In this document: one piece after another, positions 2,685 to 13,588 of the stretch
How positions within the stretch are numbered: the stretch's first letter is position 1
Layout of the letters: the number at the start of each line of letters is the position of its first letter
Assembly (NCBI GenBank): GCA_005843825.1
Contig: SZXX01000043.1
Location: 1 to 64,000 of the forward strand
Source: Chlorobium sp.
GTDB lineage: Bacteria; Bacteroidota; Chlorobiia; Chlorobiales; Chlorobiaceae
Direction: 5' to 3'
Length of the DNA stretch: 64,000 nt
Translations under genes and position numbers: made by a program
The notes under the pieces: generated by a model
What the model saw: only the letters and a program-made list of their open reading frames with translations
Databases searched by the model: none
What the model was told of the DNA's origin: nothing

Positions 2685-4088
2685 ATGCTCATTCACCAGC
2701 GCACACTTCAAAAAGAAGTTTCCCTATGGGGTACAGGACTGCACACCGGCAAAGAGTGCATGATTACCTTTAAACCTGCCCCGGTCAACTACGGCTACCG
2801 TTTTGTCCGGACAGATATTGAAAACAGTCCTGAAATACCGGCCCTGATTGAGAACGTCATAGATGTCCTGAGGGGTACCACTATCGGACTCAATGATGTT
2901 AAAGTCCACACCACCGAGCATGTTCTTGGAGCTCTTTATGGCCTGCAGATCGATAACTGCCGGATTGAACTGAGCGGACCTGAACCTCCGGTTATGGATG
3001 GAAGTTCAGCCCCTTTTGCGAAGGCACTGATGGAAGCAGGATTTCAGGAACAGGATGAGCCAAAAAACTACCTGGTCATTGATGAAACCATTGAATACCA
3101 TGATGCTGAAAACGGTGTCGATATTGTAGCTCTGCCGCTGGATGATTTCAGAATGACAGTGATGGTGGACTATAAAAACCCTGCTCTTGGCTCTCAGCAC
3201 TCTGGTCTTTTTAATCTGGAAACTGAATTTGTCAAGGATTTTTCTCCGTGCAGAACATTCTGCTTTCTCAGTGAAGTGGAAGCGCTTGCTAACCAGGGAA
3301 TTATCAAAGGAGGCGATATTGATAATGCTATTGTCATTATCGACAAGACCATGGATAAGGGTGAGCTTGACTCTCTTGGAAAAAAACTTGGTATAGAGAG
3401 CGAGCATCTTGTGCTCGGTGAAAACGGCATTCTCAACAACCGTGAACTACGCTTCAAGAATGAGCCTGCCCGGCATAAACTGCTTGACCTGCTTGGTGAC
3501 ATAGCCCTCCTTGGCATGCCCGTAAGGGCACAGGTGCTTGCTGCACGACCTGGTCATGCTTCGAATGTTGAATTTGTCAAGCAGCTCAAAAAATATGCGG
3601 ATCGCAACAAACTTGCCCGGCAGTACCAGCACGATAAAAAAGCCGGCGTTATTTTTGACATCAATGCTATTCTGAACATTCTCCCGCACCGCTATCCCTT
3701 CCTTTTAATCGACAAGATTGTTGAGTTCAAGCTTGACGAAAAAATTGTATCGATTAAAAACGTTACCATGAACGAGCCTTTTTTTCAAGGTCACTTTCCG
3801 GGAAATCCCATTATGCCCGGCGTGCTGATCCTTGAAGCTATGGCTCAGACAGGCGGTATCATGATGCTGAACGGTAATGATAAAATCAAGGAGAGTGTGG
3901 TCTACTTCATGGGTATCGACAAAGCTCGCTTCCGGAAACCTGTGCTTCCCGGCGACACCCTTGTGATTGAAGCAATCATGACCAACATGCGCAGAAGCGT
4001 CTGCCAGTTTGATGCAAAAGCTTATGTACGAGGCGAACTTGTATGCGAAGCTTCCCTCATGGCTACTGTTGTGAGCAAAAACAAATAG
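2685..4088 (+). CDS. lpxC/fabZ: Bifunctional UDP-3-O-acyl-N-acetylglucosamine deacetylase / 3-hydroxyacyl-ACP dehydratase (LpxC-FabZ fusion)
   Basis: Residues 1 to about 305 are LpxC, the zinc-dependent committed step of lipid A synthesis. Zinc ligands are visible at His79 (TTEHVLGAL), His264 and Asp268 (RHKLLDLLGD), with the general acid His291 (RPGHA). Residues about 325-467 are FabZ, which dehydrates 3-hydroxyacyl-ACP; the active-site His370 (FFQGHFPGNP) and Glu384 (LILEAMAQTGG) are present. The linker is short and the gene is uninterrupted. Fused LpxC-FabZ is known from Bacteroidota and Chlorobiota and helps place the host. AGGAG lies about 13 nt upstream of the ATG. Confidence 0.96.
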   Translation: MLIHQRTLQKEVSLWGTGLHTGKECMITFKPAPVNYGYRFVRTDIENSPEIPALIENVIDVLRGTTIGLNDVKVHTTEHVLGALYGLQIDNCRIELSGPEPPVMDGSSAPFAKALMEAGFQEQDEPKNYLVIDETIEYHDAENGVDIVALPLDDFRMTVMVDYKNPALGSQHSGLFNLETEFVKDFSPCRTFCFLSEVEALANQGIIKGGDIDNAIVIIDKTMDKGELDSLGKKLGIESEHLVLGENGILNNRELRFKNEPARHKLLDLLGDIALLGMPVRAQVLAARPGHASNVEFVKQLKKYADRNKLARQYQHDKKAGVIFDINAILNILPHRYPFLLIDKIVEFKLDEKIVSIKNVTMNEPFFQGHFPGNPIMPGVLILEAMAQTGGIMMLNGNDKIKESVVYFMGIDKARFRKPVLPGDTLVIEAIMTNMRRSVCQFDAKAYVRGELVCEASLMATVVSKNK

Positions 4089-4340: not shown

Positions 4341-4895
4341 TCAGAGGCTGTAGTTGAGGCCCTTATGAATTTTATAAAACCTTACACAATAGAGCGAAAA
4401 GGAGTAGAGAAGCATAATGAAGGAGAGGTATAAAAAGAACTCCTTGACGGGATAGCGCTGAAAAACGGGATGAGGCCAAACCATGGCAATAAACATCATG
4501 GAGACAAAGCCAACAGCCCATTTTCCCGGCCAGAGAGATGTAGTAACTACTGAATGGTGGATTCTGACATATGCGGCACCTATAAAAATAATAGCATCCC
4601 TCAGGACTGCAAAAAGCACAAACCATAAAGGGAGCTGACCAACCCATAAAAAGTAAATAGCTACACTTGCAAGACAGAGTTTGTCGGCAAGTGGATCAAG
4701 AATTTTTCCCATTTCTGAAACATCATTGGTCCATCGGGCAGCCTGACCGTCAAACCAGTCGGTCAAAAGAGCCACAACCATAATAACAATGGCGGTTTTG
4801 ATATGGCCGGTATGAAAATAATAGAGAAACCAGGGTATCAGTATTATTCTCAGAAAACTAAGCGAATTCGGCAGATTAAAGATACGACCTTCCAT
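4341..4895 (-). CDS. pgsA: CDP-diacylglycerol-glycerol-3-phosphate 3-phosphatidyltransferase family protein
   Basis: This integral membrane CDP-alcohol phosphatidyltransferase probably makes phosphatidylglycerol phosphate. The diagnostic motif DxxDGxxAR-x8-GxxxDxxxD is intact (DWFDGQAARW, then MGKILDPLADKL). Several hydrophobic helices follow. I chose ATG 4895 (MEGRIFNLPNSLSF); an in-frame ATG at 4922 would add MLSFYKNLN. The codons for EGRI coincide with the attachment core of the element on its right, so everything upstream of about 4882, including the start codon and promoter, comes from the element. The 184-residue length is normal for the family. Confidence 0.88.
   Translation of the reverse strand: MEGRIFNLPNSLSFLRIILIPWFLYYFHTGHIKTAIVIMVVALLTDWFDGQAARWTNDVSEMGKILDPLADKLCLASVAIYFLWVGQLPLWFVLFAVLRDAIIFIGAAYVRIHHSVVTTSLWPGKWAVGFVSMMFIAMVWPHPVFQRYPVKEFFLYLSFIMLLYSFSLYCVRFYKIHKGLNYSL
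4882..4894 (+). repeat. Attachment core, left copy (attL)
   Basis: The 13-nt sequence atacgaccttcca is identical to 12942-12954; adding three upstream positions gives 15 of 16 matches. It lies inside pgsA and encodes GRI and part of ME on the minus strand. A tyrosine integrase gene is associated with the other end. Confidence 0.78.
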
Positions 4896-4974
4896 ATTCA
4901 AATTTTTGTAAAAACTCAGCATCTCTTTATTTTAAAACGATATACAGAGAATAAAAAGCATCATAAACAGCCAA

Positions 4975-4994
4975 AACTTTACAAGAACTTTACA
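4975..4994 (+). repeat. Paired AACTTTACA direct repeats, candidate integrase arm sites (left)
   Basis: AACTTTACA occurs at 4975-4983 and 4986-4994, an 11-bp (one helical turn) register. A third copy in reverse orientation (TGTAAAGTT) is at 5081-5089. The same pair with the same 11-bp spacing recurs near the right end. The first copy is about 80 bp inside the attachment core. This is the geometry of arm-type sites bound by the N-terminal domain of lambda-like integrases; the binding role is inferred. Confidence 0.55.
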
Positions 4995-5082
4995 AATGCT
5001 TCAATAATCCCGTTTTTTACCCGCTCTTATTTTCTTTTGGAAGATACCGAAAGAGTAAAGATAAAAAGAGAAAGCGAATCTG

Positions 5083-5142
5083 TAAAGTTGAATTATTTTA
5101 CTTTTCTGAAAGTGTACATATCATACACACCCTACACGAAAA
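5083..5142 (+). repeat. 60-nt inverted repeat, left copy, with three 9-nt iteron-like units
   Basis: The segment matches the reverse complement of 11620-11679 at about 51 of 60 positions without gaps. Its distal part is three tandem 9-nt units: TACATATCA (5115-5123), TACACACCC (5124-5132) and TACACGAAA (5133-5141). In one frame both copies would encode LNYFT followed by YISYT and YTK. The repeat adjoins the terminator of the neighbouring gene. It could be a replication origin or protein-binding site of the element; nothing in the sequence proves either. Confidence 0.6.
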
Positions 5143-5162
5143 AAGCCGGGAACTTGCCCGGC
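5139..5162 (-). terminator. Rho-independent terminator for the element's leftward genes
   Basis: Read on the minus strand: GCCGGG, a 6-nt loop CAAGTT, CCCGGC, then six T. It follows the stop of the 5217-5555 gene by 54 nt and would shield pgsA from element transcription. Confidence 0.85.
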
Positions 5163-5216
5163 CTTCGTTATCTAAACCCCGTTGATTATTAGGGCTTTGT
5201 GTTAATGTGGGAATGG

Positions 5217-5555
5217 TCAGAAATTGATCGCCATAACCTTTTGTTTCATTTGGCTGTAATCCGAAGAGTCTGAAACGCCTAAAAACTTGCGCCCATCTTT
5301 AAGGATGCAGACAAACGGAACCTCTTTATTGTTTCCGCCAAGTATCGAACCAGCCACATGACCAGCGCCGCCGAACAATGCCGCACCAATCGCACCTCCT
5401 GCAAGAGCATTATTTATACCCCCACCGGAATTTGAATCCGCCACGTCTAAACTCTGAATATCTTTTAATGGTATTTTTTCTCTAAAAAACTGCTTTTTGC
5501 TCCTCAAATAGAGTTTTCCTAAGGCAAATGTACTCCCTCTGTCTTGAAGTCCCAT
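5217..5555 (-). CDS. Unknown small protein with a glycine-rich hydrophobic segment
   Basis: I do not recognise this 112-residue product. The N-terminal part (GKLYLRSKKQFFREKIPLKD) resembles the beta-strand start of small PH-like domains. A glycine/alanine-rich stretch follows (NNALAGGAIGAALFGGAGHV), of the kind found in glycine-zipper or membrane-inserting proteins. The C-terminal part (VPFVCILKDGRKFLGVSDSS) looks like more beta-strands. It is the last gene of the element's leftward block and ends at a clear terminator. No cargo function can be assigned. Confidence 0.6.
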   Translation of the reverse strand: MGLQDRGSTFALGKLYLRSKKQFFREKIPLKDIQSLDVADSNSGGGINNALAGGAIGAALFGGAGHVAGSILGGNNKEVPFVCILKDGRKFLGVSDSSDYSQMKQKVMAINF

Positions 5556-5628: not shown

Positions 5629-6882
5629 TTATCTGGATTTATCTTTATGGTTATATGGCATTGACTTTATGAACACAAACTTGTTGTCTCTAAATTCATA
5701 AAACTCAACAGAATCCTCTCCATCGCCATCATGCGCGCCTTCAAGATTACCCGCGAAAATCATCAATCGGCTGTTTAGTTTATAAAGATGTTCTTGTCCT
5801 TCCTTACCCTCAAGTTCTGGTTTAAGAGGAAATACTGAACTCATGGCAACGGGAAACAAATAAGCCCTTCCTGTTATTGCATCAATCACCGCGCCCGTAT
5901 TGCAACCGGAAGAACCACAACCCCACTTCGTTACTATGTAATGACCTGCAAAGTCAGGTTTTCCGTTTTTAATGGCTTCACGTAATCTTGTCCTGTAACT
6001 TTTCCCGAACTCATCAAGAAATAGCGGGTGATTTGTGCCACTATAAACCGCATCTGATGGATAATCTGTAAACTGAGGGACATTATATCTTGAACCTGAA
6101 GTTTTCGAGGTTTGTTGCGGCGGTTGAGGAGGCTGGGGTTGTTGTGGCTGTTGTGGTGGTTGTGGTGTCACTTCAGGGGTCGAAAGAATTATATCTCCCG
6201 TCTCTGAATCCCAAAAAGAACCCCTGACTTTTAAGTGATAAGTTCCTTTTGCTGGTACTTCAAACACTAAGTAGCCGCTTGTTGGTATACCTGGCTGACA
6301 TTGCTTCAAAAACAATGTCTTTCCTCCCATGCCAAGTTCTAAAGCTGAAGAACCATCATGAGAGTAGTCATATTTAATTCCTTGATCATTGCATAGTGTA
6401 AAAAGTGAGCTGTCAATGACGTGAGACTCTTTGGTATTGTTGGCGATAACAATCTTTATTATTAAATAAACTCCATCTGCTGTTTTGTTAAAATATGTGC
6501 TTCCGAGAAATCTATCATACATGATATTCTCAACTTTAAAGACAAACCCTCCTACGCTAACAGCATCTCCTATTTTTGCCTGAATAGCTTTGTCCGTCTT
6601 TTTCTCTTCCTTATCCTCAATTTGATTAACAGGAACTCTACCGGTATCTGAAATCCCCGCAGGTGGTAAGGCCTCTGTATGGTGGCTTGAAGAGGGAGTG
6701 AAAAATATAAAGCATAACACCAAAAACACTAAGAACACAAATATGTAAATCCCGACGCCATTTACTTTTTTCTTTGAAGCATCGGCAATAATTTGAGGGG
6801 TAATAGGCGTGCCGCACTTTGGGCAACTTGTCGCACTATCACTAACTTTGTTTTTGCATTCAGGACAAGAAATGAGTGCCAT
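5629..6882 (-). CDS. Zinc-ribbon membrane protein with DUF4352-like domain and an unassigned C-terminal periplasmic domain
   Basis: The 417-residue protein starts with a double-CxxC zinc ribbon (CPECKNKVSDSATSCPKCG, residues 6-24). A transmembrane helix (IYIFVFLVFLVLCFIFF) follows near residues 45-62. Residues about 100-230 resemble the DUF4352/telokin-like immunoglobulin fold (IGDAVSVGGFVFKVENIMYD, then YLIIKIVIANNT). A Pro/Gln-rich linker (near 240-255) leads to a C-terminal domain with FAGHYIVTKWGCGSSGCNTG and a secretion-compatible disulfide pair. It is the largest cargo gene of the element. Start ATG 6882 has GGGGGTG just upstream. Function is unknown; a surface or periplasmic sensing or exclusion role is only a guess. 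Confidence 0.72.
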   Translation of the reverse strand: MALISCPECKNKVSDSATSCPKCGTPITPQIIADASKKKVNGVGIYIFVFLVFLVLCFIFFTPSSSHHTEALPPAGISDTGRVPVNQIEDKEEKKTDKAIQAKIGDAVSVGGFVFKVENIMYDRFLGSTYFNKTADGVYLIIKIVIANNTKESHVIDSSLFTLCNDQGIKYDYSHDGSSALELGMGGKTLFLKQCQPGIPTSGYLVFEVPAKGTYHLKVRGSFWDSETGDIILSTPEVTPQPPQQPQQPQPPQPPQQTSKTSGSRYNVPQFTDYPSDAVYSGTNHPLFLDEFGKSYRTRLREAIKNGKPDFAGHYIVTKWGCGSSGCNTGAVIDAITGRAYLFPVAMSSVFPLKPELEGKEGQEHLYKLNSRLMIFAGNLEGAHDGDGEDSVEFYEFRDNKFVFIKSMPYNHKDKSR

Positions 6883-7783: not shown

Positions 7784-8701
7784 TTATTGTTGCTTGAATG
7801 TGAACCCTGCCTGCTTCGCCATATAGAAAAACGTACTTATTGTAACGCCTGCCGCTCTGGTCTGAAGGCATCTTGTAAACTGTCGGTCTGTTTCTGCTGG
7901 TTTGTATTTCGGGTGAAACTGGCTTAGTTCATGGAAGTATTGCCGCCCTGCTTCGCCATACCCTGAAGCAATAGCAAAGCCAACCTTCACCCAATCGGCA
8001 TGGCTGCCCGTCAGGTCATACCCGGCAGCAAGAATCTGGCTTAGAACTGCCTCAAAATACTGGCCTGAATCCTGAACGGCTGGCCGATCAACTGAACGCC
8101 GCGCCTGCTGCCGATCTCTATTGAAACGCTTCTTTCTGGTAATGAATGGGCGCGCCTCTGGGTTTCGATATAACGCCGGGTCATAGCTCACGAACCGAAG
8201 CCGGGAAACATTCTTACATGCTGGGTCTGTAATAACGCCCCAAGCCTGACGGTAGTATGCTTCAAGCTGCAAGTATGCCGCTTCATGCCGCTCAGGTTCA
8301 ATCTGAACATACAGGCATATTCCCGAACCGGAAACGGAAACATGCCCGGCAAAAGTGTACTGATCTGCATACACTCGCGCCCGTGCTGCTGGTTGTGCAA
8401 TGCCGGGGTTTTCCTTCACGTCAAGGTCAAGGCATAAAATCCCGCTGTGTTCCTTCACGTTTGCGCCGCTGTGCTTGCCTGTAAATATGCAACTTGGCGA
8501 CACTGCCGGAACTTGCTTCTTTGCCGCTTTGATCTGCTCAGGGTCGATCAATACCCGAACATCTTCAACCTGCTTTTTCCACTGCCCGCATTGAACACCC
8601 TTCAGGAATGCTTCAAGGGTTATACTTTCCGCTGGCTGCTGCTGAAACATGTTGCAACCATAAAACGAAATCAACCGGCTGCCGGGGTCAGAATGGCGCA
8701 T
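7784..8701 (-). CDS. VirE_N/BT4734-type primase-like protein with PriCT-2-like C-terminus
   Basis: The protein of about 305 residues probably primes replication of the element. The N-terminal half resembles the VirE N-terminal (BT4734) family, with the acidic motif GILCLDLDVKEN and GHVSVSGSGICLYVQIEPE typical of archaeo-eukaryotic-type primase cores. The C-terminal 90 residues (ADWVKVGFAIASGYGEAGRQ, then FHPKYKPAETDRQF) match the primase C-terminal-2 pattern. I chose ATG 8701 because AAGGGGG lies 6 nt upstream; a TTG at 8719 is possible. It overlaps the helicase stop by 14 nt. In many satellites the primase and helicase are fused; here they are two genes. Confidence 0.78.
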   Translation of the reverse strand: MRHSDPGSRLISFYGCNMFQQQPAESITLEAFLKGVQCGQWKKQVEDVRVLIDPEQIKAAKKQVPAVSPSCIFTGKHSGANVKEHSGILCLDLDVKENPGIAQPAARARVYADQYTFAGHVSVSGSGICLYVQIEPERHEAAYLQLEAYYRQAWGVITDPACKNVSRLRFVSYDPALYRNPEARPFITRKKRFNRDRQQARRSVDRPAVQDSGQYFEAVLSQILAAGYDLTGSHADWVKVGFAIASGYGEAGRQYFHELSQFHPKYKPAETDRQFTRCLQTRAAGVTISTFFYMAKQAGFTFKQQ

Positions 8702-10235
8702 CTGAACCCCCTTTTTCAACTGCTGAAAAGGTTTTGACTACGAAATAAACAAAACCTGTATTTTTCCGCTGTTTCTCGAACCCTGCCGCCTGCATCCTCT
8801 GGGCAAAGGTTTTACTGCTTACTGGTCTGAATCCTTCGTCTTTGCAGAAATCCCGGTACTCGCTGTAAAGAGTTTTGAACGGCTGCTCATGTCCATTAGT
8901 CGAACCCGTATAACTGGCATCTTCAAGCCATAAGGAAACAGAATTGCTTTCGTGCTGGTATGTTTGCAATGCCTTATCTGCCGCCCGGCTGTGGCTGAAT
9001 TGCCGCTGCTTCAATAGTCGGTCAAGCCCTTCAAGAATCCAGTTTAGAACGCCGGGAAGCTCTGTTTCTTTGATCTGGTTTGAAAGTTCTGTGTTCTGCT
9101 GTTCTGCTGGTATTGTTACATCAAAAGGAAGAATCTTGAACCTTCTAAAAAATGCCGGGCTGTGTTCAACTTCGCGGGGTAATTCGTTTGCATTACAGAA
9201 AAGCCGCGCATAGTCGCGCATGGTGTAAAGGTCTGCATATAATCTCTTGGCTGAAATCGGCTCACCTGAAGCAAGCAACTTGAAAACGTCTGAATCGGCA
9301 ATGCCGCCGATCTCTGAAGAAATGTTTAAAAGTTTATCCTGAAGCCCGGCCCGCGCGTTTTCGTTTTGTGTCAGTAACTTCAGGCTGTACCCGGAAACAT
9401 TTTCACGTCCAAGAACTGCCGTCAATACATCGGCAACAACGCTTTTACCGTTCGCGCCGGAACCAAACAGAACAGGAACCTTTTCAAGCTTCAAAACGCT
9501 GGAAGGAATGAAGGCTGTTGCCGCTGCCTCGGCCAATACTTGCCGGGCTTCCTTGTCTGGCTGAACTTCATCAAGAAACGTCTGCCATATCGGGGCCACT
9601 GCTGCGGGGTCATAACTGAAGGCAAGCTGATAAGTCAAGAAATCTTCTGCCCTGAACTCTCTCAATTGAACCCCCTCAGGGGTAATACTCAGGGTTCCAT
9701 TTGAAAGGTTGACTGTTACCCGGCTGCGGTCACGCTCTGGGGCTGGAAGGTGGGCTGTTGTATGGAACTGTTTAACCAACTCTTCACGGAACCTGAAATG
9801 TTCAGCATGAACATGCTCAACCCCCATTTTTTCAATGGCTTTGCCTAAGAAGTGCTTCAGGGCGTTTTCGTCTATCGGCTGCCAATGTTGGCCATTATAA
9901 ACATAAACCCGCCCGTGCTGGGCTGCAAGCCGCCATTGATTAGCCTTGCATAAGTTCAAAAGGTGCTGAACGCCATATACCTGGTAATGTTTCAAAGTGG
10001 GTCTGCAACTGCTGATCTGCTTCTGAATTTGCAGTGCTTCGTTTGCGGCCTTCATGCTTTCCGGGGTGTCAATGTTTGCGCTACCGTCCGGGTTTGTGCT
10101 TTTGGCTTGCGCTTCTTTCAGGTCGGCCCGAAGTCCAGTAATTTCGGGGAATGCAAGAATCTGAAAATCAACCCTGCCAACCTGCTGAAGCAACTGCCCC
10201 AAAATCGCGCCGTGCTTTGGTGCTGGTTCTGTCAT
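8688..10235 (-). CDS. Phage/plasmid D5/P4-type SF3 helicase
   Basis: The product (515 residues from ATG 10235) should be the replicative helicase of the element. A D5_N-like region precedes a superfamily 3 ATPase. The Walker A motif GSGANGKS is at about residues 258-265. NISSEIGGIADSDVFKLLAS and RLFCNANELPREVEHSPAFF correspond to the Walker B/sensor region and motif C. The start is set by AAGGGAG upstream of ATG 10235 and by the 4-nt ATGA overlap with the preceding gene; an upstream in-frame start at 10316 would add 27 poorly conserved residues. The primase lies directly downstream. Confidence 0.87.
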   Translation of the reverse strand: MTEPAPKHGAILGQLLQQVGRVDFQILAFPEITGLRADLKEAQAKSTNPDGSANIDTPESMKAANEALQIQKQISSCRPTLKHYQVYGVQHLLNLCKANQWRLAAQHGRVYVYNGQHWQPIDENALKHFLGKAIEKMGVEHVHAEHFRFREELVKQFHTTAHLPAPERDRSRVTVNLSNGTLSITPEGVQLREFRAEDFLTYQLAFSYDPAAVAPIWQTFLDEVQPDKEARQVLAEAAATAFIPSSVLKLEKVPVLFGSGANGKSVVADVLTAVLGRENVSGYSLKLLTQNENARAGLQDKLLNISSEIGGIADSDVFKLLASGEPISAKRLYADLYTMRDYARLFCNANELPREVEHSPAFFRRFKILPFDVTIPAEQQNTELSNQIKETELPGVLNWILEGLDRLLKQRQFSHSRAADKALQTYQHESNSVSLWLEDASYTGSTNGHEQPFKTLYSEYRDFCKDEGFRPVSSKTFAQRMQAAGFEKQRKNTGFVYFVVKTFSAVEKGGSDAPF

Positions 10236-10510
10236 ATTGCTCCCTTCCTTTCCGATCTGCAAAGCAACTTGCCGTCTGGCCCTACGAAATAGGAATACCT
10301 TATCTTGCTTGGCCAATCTTTAAACAGGTAATAGGCATCAACCATTGCTCGCCGGGCTGCTCTCAGGTGTGCATCAACATCAAAAGGCTTGTTATTATCG
10401 GGGCGTGTTGTATATTTGATCTGTGAACAACGCCCATTGTTCGCGCGCAACAAATGCCCGTTCTTGCCGGTAGCTTGCCCGCTACCGGCTTTTTTATTGT
10501 CTGGTCTCAT
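10232..10510 (-). CDS. Unknown 92-residue protein of the element replication operon
   Basis: It is lysine/asparagine-rich at the N-terminus and carries AHLRAARRAMVDAYYLFKDW near the middle and YSYFVGPDGKLLCRSE at the end. It overlaps both neighbours by 4 nt (ATGA), so it is tightly coupled to the HTH gene upstream and the helicase downstream. No family is recognised. A replication accessory role would fit the position. Confidence 0.6.
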   Translation of the reverse strand: MRPDNKKAGSGQATGKNGHLLRANNGRCSQIKYTTRPDNNKPFDVDAHLRAARRAMVDAYYLFKDWPSKIRYSYFVGPDGKLLCRSERKGAI

Positions 10511-10800
10511 GCTTGCCCCCCTTCAGTCTGAACTGCTGCCGCTGGTTGCCCAGCCATCATATAGCGGTCGATCTCTGCCGGGTCGAAAACAAGCTTTCCG
10601 AATGGTGAACGCTGGCCTATAAATGCCCCTTTTTCTATTGAACGCTTTTTGTATAGTGTGGCGCGTGCAACCTTAACGCCGTAAACGTCCTTGATATACT
10701 GAAGGGCCTGTTCTGTGGAAAGGAAGCGCTGCCGGGGTCGCTGAATTGCCTGTGCTGTTGGCTGGGGTGTGGTTTCAATAGTCTGCATATCGCGTAACAT
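10507..10800 (-). CDS. Helix-turn-helix protein, excisionase/AlpA-like
   Basis: This 97-residue protein has a winged-helix-like DNA-binding core: FLSTEQALQYIKDVYGVKVA, RATLYKKRSIEKGAF and KLVFDPAEIDRYM. This is the order of helix, recognition helix and wing in MerR/excisionase-type HTH_17 proteins. It is first in the helicase-primase operon, so it could act as excisionase, replication initiator or repressor. A 7-bp hairpin/operator candidate lies 14 nt upstream of its ATG. An internal ATG at 10788 is an alternative start. Confidence 0.7.
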   Translation of the reverse strand: MLRDMQTIETTPQPTAQAIQRPRQRFLSTEQALQYIKDVYGVKVARATLYKKRSIEKGAFIGQRSPFGKLVFDPAEIDRYMMAGQPAAAVQTEGGQA

Positions 10801-11578: not shown

Positions 11579-11619
11579 ATATCGCCATATTTTGGTTAAT
11601 CCCGCCCAATAAATTCCCG

Positions 11620-11679
11620 TTTTCGTGTATGATGTGTAGGATATGTACCCTTCTGAAAAGGTAAAATAATTCAACTTTA
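11620..11679 (-). repeat. 60-nt inverted repeat, right copy, with three 9-nt iteron-like units
   Basis: The reverse complement matches 5083-5142 at about 51 of 60 positions. The iteron units are TACATATCC, TACACATCA and TACACGAAA on the minus strand. It lies just past the integrase stop codon and upstream of the 10886-11578 gene. Confidence 0.6.
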
Positions 11680-11680
11680 T

Positions 11681-12748
11681 TCACCAACTTGGCAGTTTAT
11701 CCATTGCCGCCGTTTTCGTTTCGTCAACAACTTTGGCGTAAATCTGGGTAGCTGAAATAGTGGCATGGCCCATCAATTTACTCAGGGTGTAAAGGTCAAC
11801 GCCATTCTGAAGGCTCAACACTGCGAAAGAATGCCGCCCACAATGAAAGCCAAGATTGAACGGAATGCCTGCCGCCGCGCCCCAAGCTCGAACAACCTTC
11901 ACGCTCCAGGCTCTGCTGGGTAAAAGAAAAACCCTGCTATCTTCGGTTTCCCTGTCTTTATGTTGTTCTTTGGCTTCATCAAGATATTTCAACGCCTGCG
12001 CTCCAAGGGTCAAACGTTCCCATCTCTGGGTCTTTTGCGCCTTGAAACGAATCGTTACCCTGTCGCCGTCCTGCTGAATATCTCCATCTTTTAAGGCTTC
12101 AAGGTCTGAAACTCTCAAGCCCGAAAAACAAGAAAACAGAAAAGCCGCCTTTATTGCCGGGAGGCTGCAAGGTGTCGCCTCAAGGGTTTTGATCTGCTCA
12201 ACGGTCAAATATTTCAGGGCAACATCATTCTTGCCAAACTGTTTTATTTTCCTTGAGAAATCAGGTATAAGATTTTCCTCTGCTGCCCGCTTTAGAATGA
12301 TCTTCAAGGCAAGCAAGTAATTTTGTTTTGTTGTTTCCTTCAGACTCAAACCATCAACGTACGCCCGGAACCGCTCCGCCCATGTTTGGCAAATATTCGC
12401 CATTGGCAACGGCTTTACTCCATTGAAATCTCGAAGATGTTTCAAGGCGTTTCTATAAGAGGATTCACTTTTTTTTTCATCATTCATCACCTTCTTGAAA
12501 TACTCAAGAAAATCATTGCCGCGCCTCTCCTTGCCAAGAAAAACCGCTGCCGGGTCGATCTTCAACTGTGCTTCCAACTCTGCCGCCCGTGCTTCAGCCT
12601 GCTGTCGTGCTTTTTTGTACTCCCTGCCTTCTGATCTTTCGGCCTGAATATCTGTTTTAACCTGCTGCCGCTGGCCCTTGAAATAAATGTCAATACTGAA
12701 GGAAACGCCGCCCTCTTTCAGTGCAATTTCACGAACCGAAACACCCAT
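11681..12748 (-). CDS. int: Tyrosine-type site-specific integrase
   Basis: The 355-residue recombinase should insert and excise the element at pgsA. All catalytic residues are present: Arg212 (FSGLRVSDLEAL), Lys239, His302 and Arg305 (FHCGRHSFAV), His328 (LMGHATISA) and the nucleophile Tyr337 (TQIYAKV). Residues about 75-160 form a SAM-like core-binding domain. The N-terminal 60 residues (YFKGQRQQVKTDIQAERSEG) look like the arm-binding domain common in Bacteroidota/Chlorobiota phage-type integrases. The gene reads inward from attR, 193 nt from the core. It appears intact. Confidence 0.93.
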   Translation of the reverse strand: MGVSVREIALKEGGVSFSIDIYFKGQRQQVKTDIQAERSEGREYKKARQQAEARAAELEAQLKIDPAAVFLGKERRGNDFLEYFKKVMNDEKKSESSYRNALKHLRDFNGVKPLPMANICQTWAERFRAYVDGLSLKETTKQNYLLALKIILKRAAEENLIPDFSRKIKQFGKNDVALKYLTVEQIKTLEATPCSLPAIKAAFLFSCFSGLRVSDLEALKDGDIQQDGDRVTIRFKAQKTQRWERLTLGAQALKYLDEAKEQHKDRETEDSRVFLLPSRAWSVKVVRAWGAAAGIPFNLGFHCGRHSFAVLSLQNGVDLYTLSKLMGHATISATQIYAKVVDETKTAAMDKLPSW

Positions 12749-12770
12749 AAAACCCTCTTTATTTTTTGTA

Positions 12771-12790
12771 AACTTTACGGAAACTTTACA
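12771..12790 (+). repeat. Paired AACTTTAC[A/G] direct repeats, candidate integrase arm sites (right)
   Basis: AACTTTACG (12771-12779) and AACTTTACA (12782-12790) are 11 bp apart, the same spacing and orientation as the pair at 4975-4994. They lie about 150 bp inside attR and just upstream of the integrase gene, so integrase binding here could also autoregulate int. Confidence 0.5.
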
Positions 12791-12816
12791 AATTCAAAGG
12801 AACATTACAGAAAAAT

Positions 12817-12941: not shown

Positions 12942-12954
12942 ATACGACCTTCCA
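12942..12954 (+). repeat. Attachment core, right copy (attR)
   Basis: The sequence is identical to 4882-4894. Downstream, the minus strand reads GTGGAAGGTCGTATTTT, the probable original pgsA start region left behind when the element integrated. Confidence 0.76.
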
Positions 12955-13024
12955 CAGCTTTGATTTTATTATTGAGTCATATCAACTCTTCCAACGCAGG
13001 CAATTCATGCACTCTCCAGTGAAA

Positions 13025-13588
13025 CTAACGGACAACCTTATCGGGTGATGCGGCGACAAACTGCGACCAGCTGCTGCCACCACCCCGGGCTTTTTCAACG
13101 GGAAGAAAAGCCTTCCGGCTCTCTCCTCTAAGCAAGTCGCACAGGGCTATGCCGAGTGCATCTGTAACATCATAAGGTTTAGGCGGCTCGGCTAGACCAA
13201 GCATTCTTGAGACCATAAAAGCAACCTGCTCTTTACTTGCCGACCCTCTTCCGGTTATCGCCGATTTCACTTCACGCGGAGCATACTCGTGCAACTCAAG
13301 ATGCTGATTCATGGCAAGGGCTATAACCGCACCACGAACCTGACCGAGCTTAAGAGCCGACTGCACATTTCTGCTTAAAAACGCAGTTTCCAAAGCTACA
13401 CGTTCCGGCTTAAAATCATCAATAACCGCTTCAAGCTCACGATATATTTCACCTATCCGTTCTGCATGGGTCCGACGGGGATTTAGACGGATAACACCAC
13501 AAACGAGCACGGAAAGAACTCCGGAACTCTGGCTAACCACCCCATAACCGGTATTCAGACTTCCGGGATCAACCCCGAGGACAACCAT
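13025..13588 (-). CDS. ruvC: Holliday junction endodeoxyribonuclease RuvC
   Basis: The 187-residue RuvC resolves Holliday junctions together with RuvAB. The acidic active site can be traced: Asp7 ([13 protein letters not shown]), Glu67 (VALETAFL), and Asp140 and Asp143 ([12 protein letters not shown]). The conserved [10 protein letters not shown] and RGSASKEQV stretches are present. The stop is 70 nt from the right attachment core of the element. It follows yebC after 3 nt on the same strand, a common arrangement. Confidence 0.96.

Follow-up and report, generated by a model that had tools for sequence, protein, structure and literature searches.

The window analysed in this work is a 64-kb stretch of Chlorobium DNA (64,000 nucleotides), and the gene of interest occupies positions 4341..4895 on its minus strand, encoding a 184-residue CDP-alcohol phosphatidyltransferase (Pfam PF01066, 125 bits; pgsA-like below) whose likely start codon, assigned by comparing the starts in 62 genomes, is the ATG at 4895-4893. 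It adjoins a 467-aa ORF (2685-4088) whose sequence, read by eye, resembles an LpxC-FabZ fusion. At the pgsA-like start codon sits an element of ~8.06 kb that encodes a tyrosine integrase and two primase-type proteins among other products. Every element gene with a Pfam match lies on the minus strand, in common with ruvC and the pgsA-like gene. Reading away from the pgsA-like gene, the element includes a 112-aa ORF of no assigned function (5217..5555 (-); weak PHROG matches of unknown function), a 417-aa protein with a zinc ribbon and DUF4352 (5629..6882 (-); Pfam), a primase-type protein with a BT4734-like N domain and PriCT_2 (7784..8719 (-)), a D5-like primase/helicase with D5_N and DUF5906 (8688..10316 (-); both found by Pfam/PHROG family search), a 97-aa small protein (10507..10800 (-)) and the 355-aa integrase (11681..12748 (-)), which scored 65.4 bits against PF00589 (curated cut-off 27.1 bits) and shares 97% identity with a relative occupying this site in genome G088. 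The gene beyond, ruvC (13025..13588 (-)), is the upstream neighbour of the pgsA-like gene in empty sites, as judged by position in native genomes.

P4/PICI-like satellites combine an integrase, an AlpA-type regulator and a primase. The element has the integrase and a D5-type primase; its candidate regulator is the 97-aa protein, which had no Pfam or PHROG family match and was guessed to be an HTH or excisionase protein, relatives of it being located beside related integrases. No conjugation gene was recognised in the 8-kb element, and a scan of viral contigs for relatives of the element returned six pattern stretches and no relative. A 24-bp repeat near the left end (4974..4997) matches a partner near the right end (12770..12793) at 88% and is a possible integrase arm site. 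By eye, a copy of ~60 bp was also seen in inverted orientation at 5083-5150 and 11590-11674 (AATTATTTTAC..TCTGAA..GTACATATC.TACACA.C.TACACGAAAA), one near the left end and one before a 262-aa element gene; it could be an origin or a regulatory repeat.

The two ends of the element carry ATGGAAGGTCGTATCTT (4895-4879 (-)) and GTGGAAGGTCGTATTTT (12955-12939 (-)), which are the sole matches at three or fewer mismatches in the whole 64-kb window. A chance repeat was ruled out as the origin of this pair, since 0.23 matches were expected and two or more were obtained in 1 of 100 shuffles; a tRNA gene as target was likewise ruled out, as no tRNA was found within the window. End-to-end comparison reduced the block common to both ends to 13 identical bp, TGGAAGGTCGTAT, present as attL at 4882..4894 (-) and as attR, inside GTGGAAGGTCGTATTTT, at 12942..12954 (-). 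An earlier note on this DNA had described the attachment core as covering the MEGRI codons; codons 1-5 do lie within the 13-bp block, with the exception of the first base of the start codon, which falls outside it and is A at 4895 and G at 12955.

The bases flanking the block identify what each side contributed. The left copy is preceded by A and followed by C, the right copy is preceded by G and followed by T, and the four closest empty relatives (G033, G005, G016 and G104) have G before the block and C after it; among the 51 native sequences the base after the block is C in 33, T in 12 and A in 6. Because both copies share TGGAAGGTCGTAT, the crossover is placed within it, and comparison with the empty relatives assigns the base before the block to the element and the base after it to the host, so that GTG became ATG on integration. 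Of the 70 nt preceding the GTG at the right end, 58-61 are identical in comparisons with three native relatives, by which GTGGAAGGTCGTATTTT is recognised as the displaced native start, as the earlier note had surmised; the native 5' region of the pgsA-like gene is thus stranded at 12955..13024 (-), with its GTG at 12955-12953. Element DNA comprises all that precedes the gene together with the A of its ATG, and the native GTG sits 8 kb away beside ruvC. The claim that the element supplies the start codon can therefore be retained for the first base of the ATG and all upstream DNA, the remaining coding sequence being native. Insertion upstream of a still-intact native promoter was ruled out, given that the gene's original 5' DNA now lies at the opposite end of the element.

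The pgsA-like gene is retained across the genus (64 of 65 Chlorobium genomes), and its start was readable in 62; G103 and G094 (5' end absent) and G109 (no match at the cut-off) were left out of the count, and G088 was counted once. Alignment of the 5' ends, which the earlier note had proposed as a check, separated 11 genomes with an element-type left end, all starting with ATG, from 51 with a native start, comprising 50 GTG and 1 TTG. Within a second genus of the family (G068 and G078 giving no match at the cut-off), GTG was found in 19 of 19 readable starts. In the native genomes with ruvC on the stretch (49 of 51), ruvC is upstream and its end is separated from the gene by 20-117 bp. A direct-repeat core at both ends of the element is accompanied by empty sites in relatives (native start in 51 of 62 Chlorobium genomes). 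The 70 nt of the window's left end before the ATG were no more similar than shuffled sequence to native upstream regions (z -1.2 to 1.3; 8 of 51 native genomes compared), so that element-free relatives do not share the sequence upstream of 4895 in this set, and were far more similar than shuffled sequence to those of other element-type genomes (z 7.9 to 9.7; 5 of 10 compared). The ORF as listed (4341-4922) opens at an in-frame ATG within element DNA, giving an extension of the gene at 4896..4922 (-). Among the 11 element-type genomes an ATG is kept at the 4922 place in 4 and at the 4895 place in all 11, which makes 4895 the likelier start; 4922 was rejected as a conserved start.

The relatives G033, G005, G016 and G104 (protein identity 95-98%) have empty sites, so the insertion in the window looks recent. 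G088 carries the same insertion, and its integrase is 97% identical to that of the window, compared with 94% for the pgsA-like protein, 92% for YebC and 87% for RuvC, a difference that points to horizontal spread. Two further genomes have lost most of the element and kept its left end: in G012 the gap between ruvC and the gene is 358 bp, the right end has decayed and the interior is nearly gone, and in G089 the gap is 672 bp and the left end alone is recognised. The replaced 5' region can thus outlive the element.

The conserved left end of the element (4896..4992 (-)), delimited by alignment with other left ends and unlike the native upstream sequence, is the 5' region of the gene and presumably comprises its promoter and leader. 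The pgsA-like gene is separated from the nearest element gene by a terminator-like hairpin followed by six T (5139..5162 (-)); the fold of 5136-5172 (-) has a free energy of -16.4 kcal/mol (z -3.3), and the terminator scanner reported this hairpin on the plus strand only, the six T being read on the gene's strand. An element transcript should end at the hairpin, which leads us to expect a transcription start site within the remaining ~240 bp before the ATG. On account of the hairpin and of the left ends kept in relics, the element's left end probably contains a promoter that drives the pgsA-like gene. A scan for consensus promoters over the 500 bp from 4800 to 5300 gave 4 sites against 1.9 +/- 1.5 in shuffles, close to chance, with none of the 4 on the gene's strand within the 100 bp preceding the ATG, and reading of the left end by eye for promoter or IHF-type motifs gave no firm result. 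That no promoter stands out in the scan would suit an element that gives the gene a start codon and no promoter, with transcription running on into the gene from the element's own genes or the yebC-ruvC operon, which share its strand; the family-matched element genes, ruvC and the pgsA-like gene are indeed co-oriented, and in the relics ruvC is just 358 bp (G012) and 672 bp (G089) away. Against such read-through, the hairpin and six T separate the last element gene from the pgsA-like gene, and in G088 the longest ORF beside the gene, of 244 aa (stretch L035, 17481-18215), is encoded by the other strand. We consider read-through as the source of expression unlikely and favour a promoter within the left end.

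The identity of the target gene was examined by family search. The window protein scored 82.1 against NCBIfam pgsA (TIGR00560; cut-off 109.1) and 88.2 against ClsA (cut-off 240), below the cut-off in both cases, and its sole relative of solved structure found by sequence is a PgsA (7drj, E 4e-11). A second gene of the genome from which the window comes, on contig C47 of G000 (stretch L307, 641-1261), passes the pgsA cut-off with a score of 119 and adjoins a pgpA-like ORF, itself at 71 bits under its own cut-off of 226. By these scores the G000 gene is a better PgsA candidate than the window gene, and the description of the latter in the earlier note as an essential gene is not borne out.

Thirteen integrases in 12 other Chlorobium genomes were 66-97% identical to that of the window. 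Twelve pairs of attachment sites were assembled, the window's included; both ends were on a single contig in five of these (the window, G088, G021, G012 and G023) and were paired by sequence from different contigs in the other seven, while G086 and G103 could not be paired (in G103 the right end of the element was found and the left end was not). In 11 of the 12 pairs a block of 11-22 bp is shared, starting no more than 3 nt upstream or 6 nt downstream of where a start codon begins, and the genes so targeted are pgsA-like (three), rfbD (three), gcvPB (two), bshA, panD and probably metH, a name that rests on 25 residues. The exception, in G023, is a 9-bp block located off any start codon, ~60 nt before an ORF. 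By eye the target cores resemble ATGAAA...TTNTT. In G101 and G089, rfbD has ATA or ATC as its native first codon, and its frame is opened by an ATG that lies 6 nt further upstream, within the left end. In every one of the 12 pairs the integrase ATG is 189-202 bp away from the right block (196 bp in G108).

An integrase tree was built from 13 of the 14 clade members, two of them partial (G086, with its integrase cut by the contig end, was omitted), and grouped them by target: rfbD (support 100/100), gcvPB (97/99) and pgsA (80/89). Integrase subclades follow targets, with the pgsA group not strongly supported. Taken with the junctions, this looks like repeated use of start codons as a habit of the clade and not of the pgsA case alone.

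To census left ends across the 65 Chlorobium genomes, a profile (R1) was built from 15 of the 18 left ends at hand, omitting those at rfbD of G099 (deletion), pgsA of G107 (near-duplicate of G088) and gcvPB of G012. It gave 47 matches in 30 genomes, 41 of them directly before the first codon of a host gene: rfbD (14, including the ATA/ATC cases of G101 and G089), pgsA-like (11), flavodoxin-like (5), rfbA (4), queC (2), glycosyltransferase-like (2), metH, bshA and gcvPB. Of the rest, one precedes a radical-SAM gene in G087 (TIGR03916; ATG 6 nt inside the left end), one precedes a NamZ gene in G082 (ATG 13 nt further on) and four are away from any recognised gene start. Genes were named by family search of one member per group and by the same N-terminus for the rest. 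As R1 includes the ATG, the census was repeated with a second profile (R2) made from 10 of the 11 pgsA left ends (G107 omitted) and ending 30 nt before the ATG. R2 gave 41 matches in 27 genomes, namely the 11 pgsA-like genes and 30 others, and 27 of these 30 directly precede a first codon (rfbD 13, rfbA 4, queC 4, flavodoxin-like 2, and one each at gcvPB, metH, bshA and a glycosyltransferase-like gene); the other three are the NamZ case and two matches away from a recognised start (G101 contig C57 and G023 contig C8). Matches under ~30 bits may include false ones, most of the genomes are drafts, and the queC matches of G033 and G106, identical in the printed stretch, may not be independent. 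In G104 the order is rfbC, a 22-residue integrase fragment and, after 1.9 kb, the left end with rfbD. The stretches read around most of the other left-end matches, often short ones, yielded no element gene.

These matches could also represent a promoter type common in Chlorobium and unrelated to element ends, and those below ~30 bits (flavodoxin-like, some rfbA, glycosyltransferase-like) are indeed AT-rich and weak. We regard this as very unlikely to account for the matches at other genes: R2 had 41 matches in Chlorobium and 0 in 21 genomes from a different genus of the family, native rfbD and gcvPB 5' regions differ, and a right end with a matching core is present at metH, bshA, panD, rfbD and gcvPB. 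Somewhat more probable, though still doubtful, is that the left end is DNA for binding integrase and excisionase only, that start-codon sites are what survived because the gene was spared there, and that a weak promoter arising by chance takes over. The repeat TTTGTAAAG..TAAAGTTT at both ends agrees with this, as does an AT-rich block 20-50 nt before the ATG that is common to elements at different genes, as a recombination site would be. Recombination alone would probably not, however, keep left ends at genes without an element gene on the stretch read, or in the putative relic of G012.

Altogether, it is very probable that an 8.06-kb element has integrated at the pgsA-like start codon, replacing the gene's 5' region, that this is a habit of the integrase clade, and that the replaced region outlives the element. 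Both junctions and the empty sites show that entry was by integrase-type recombination of the element's core with the first codons of the gene; with the crossover in TGGAAGGTCGTAT, the coding sequence has stayed native while the upstream DNA and the initial base of the start codon (turning GTG into ATG) were swapped for the left end, and the native 5' region has ended up at the other end of the element, facing the integrase. The gene would then most likely be expressed from a promoter in the ~240 bp between hairpin and ATG. The geometry further suggests a switch, in which the native 5' region faces the integrase gene in the integrated state and the left end would do so in the excised circle. 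On a broader reading, for which we see the case as evenly poised, this is a dedicated start-codon strategy: the left end would be a portable module of promoter, leader and start codon that becomes permanent after decay, some ten metabolic genes would have been re-wired across Chlorobium, and a single promoter would alternate between host gene and integrase.

Many integrases target tRNA genes or the 3' ends of genes, where copied sequence repairs the target. A clade that targets start codons must bring working upstream DNA, and every insertion thereby doubles as a replacement of a 5' region.

The closest precedents are elements at the 5' ends of host genes. Integrative elements specific for dusA, IMEVchUSA3 among them, insert at the 5' end of their host gene, and their promoter has been shown experimentally (PMC8409611). 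The likeness to the Chlorobium element is one of insertion position, and they differ in having one target gene and a proven promoter, whereas the Chlorobium clade uses the start codon itself at several targets with a promoter that is predicted. SXT/R391 ICEs insert at the 5' end of prfC and supply a promoter and N-terminus (as cited in PMC8409611); they are conjugative and ~100 kb in size (PMC2654960), in contrast to the 8-kb Chlorobium element with no recognised conjugation gene. Traits of the SXT and dusA type found here are insertion at the 5' end, a reading frame kept open, and supply of the start codon and N-terminal sequence, as the first base of the ATG at pgsA and as an ATG two codons upstream at rfbD (G101 and G089). 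SpyCI at mutL occupies the 5' end of an operon gene, and a decayed island expresses mutL from a promoter in the int pseudogene (PMC3430984); intact SpyCI blocks mutL (PMC3430984), whereas intact Chlorobium elements leave an open frame behind a conserved left end. Helper-embedded PICIs, in which one integrase clade occupies 14 prophage late-gene sites with subclades following sites (PMC10111431), resemble the Chlorobium clade in repeatedly taking new sites of one kind and in carrying int and a primase, and differ in interrupting prophage late genes until excision (PMC10111431), where the Chlorobium elements sit at chromosomal start codons with the frame open. With some archaeal elements, expression of the tRNA gene is left to the promoter of the integrase (PMC8371274).

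The pgsA case alone thus has precedents in SXT at prfC and the dusA islands, and what looks new is the clade-wide use of start codons together with relic 5' ends. Among the titles and abstract openings listed in a literature search, none dealt with start-codon-targeting elements in green sulfur bacteria, which does not prove absence. The natural series of empty, occupied and relic sites allows the rewiring of metabolic gene expression by mobile DNA to be studied, and the clade shows a site-specific recombinase changing targets while keeping to one kind of site.

Several minor observations were made on the loci surveyed. Upstream of rfbD, stretches L294 (G003, where rfbC is ~11 kb from rfbD), L291 and L293 contain long insertions with varied, partly degraded ORFs, in which no integrase of the clade was found; islands or the remains of elements are possible origins. 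One glycosyltransferase-like gene likewise has a long insertion upstream. The queC 5' regions of L287 (G033 contig C65) and L288 (G106 contig C23), from different bins, are identical over 150 bases, possibly reflecting a shared contig, bin contamination or recent transfer. Among the gcvPB loci L150-L179 (30 Chlorobium genomes, read by eye), several upstream regions are unlike the common one and have no related integrase nearby; some of them carry TAAAGTTT-like repeats, and they are possibly older relics.
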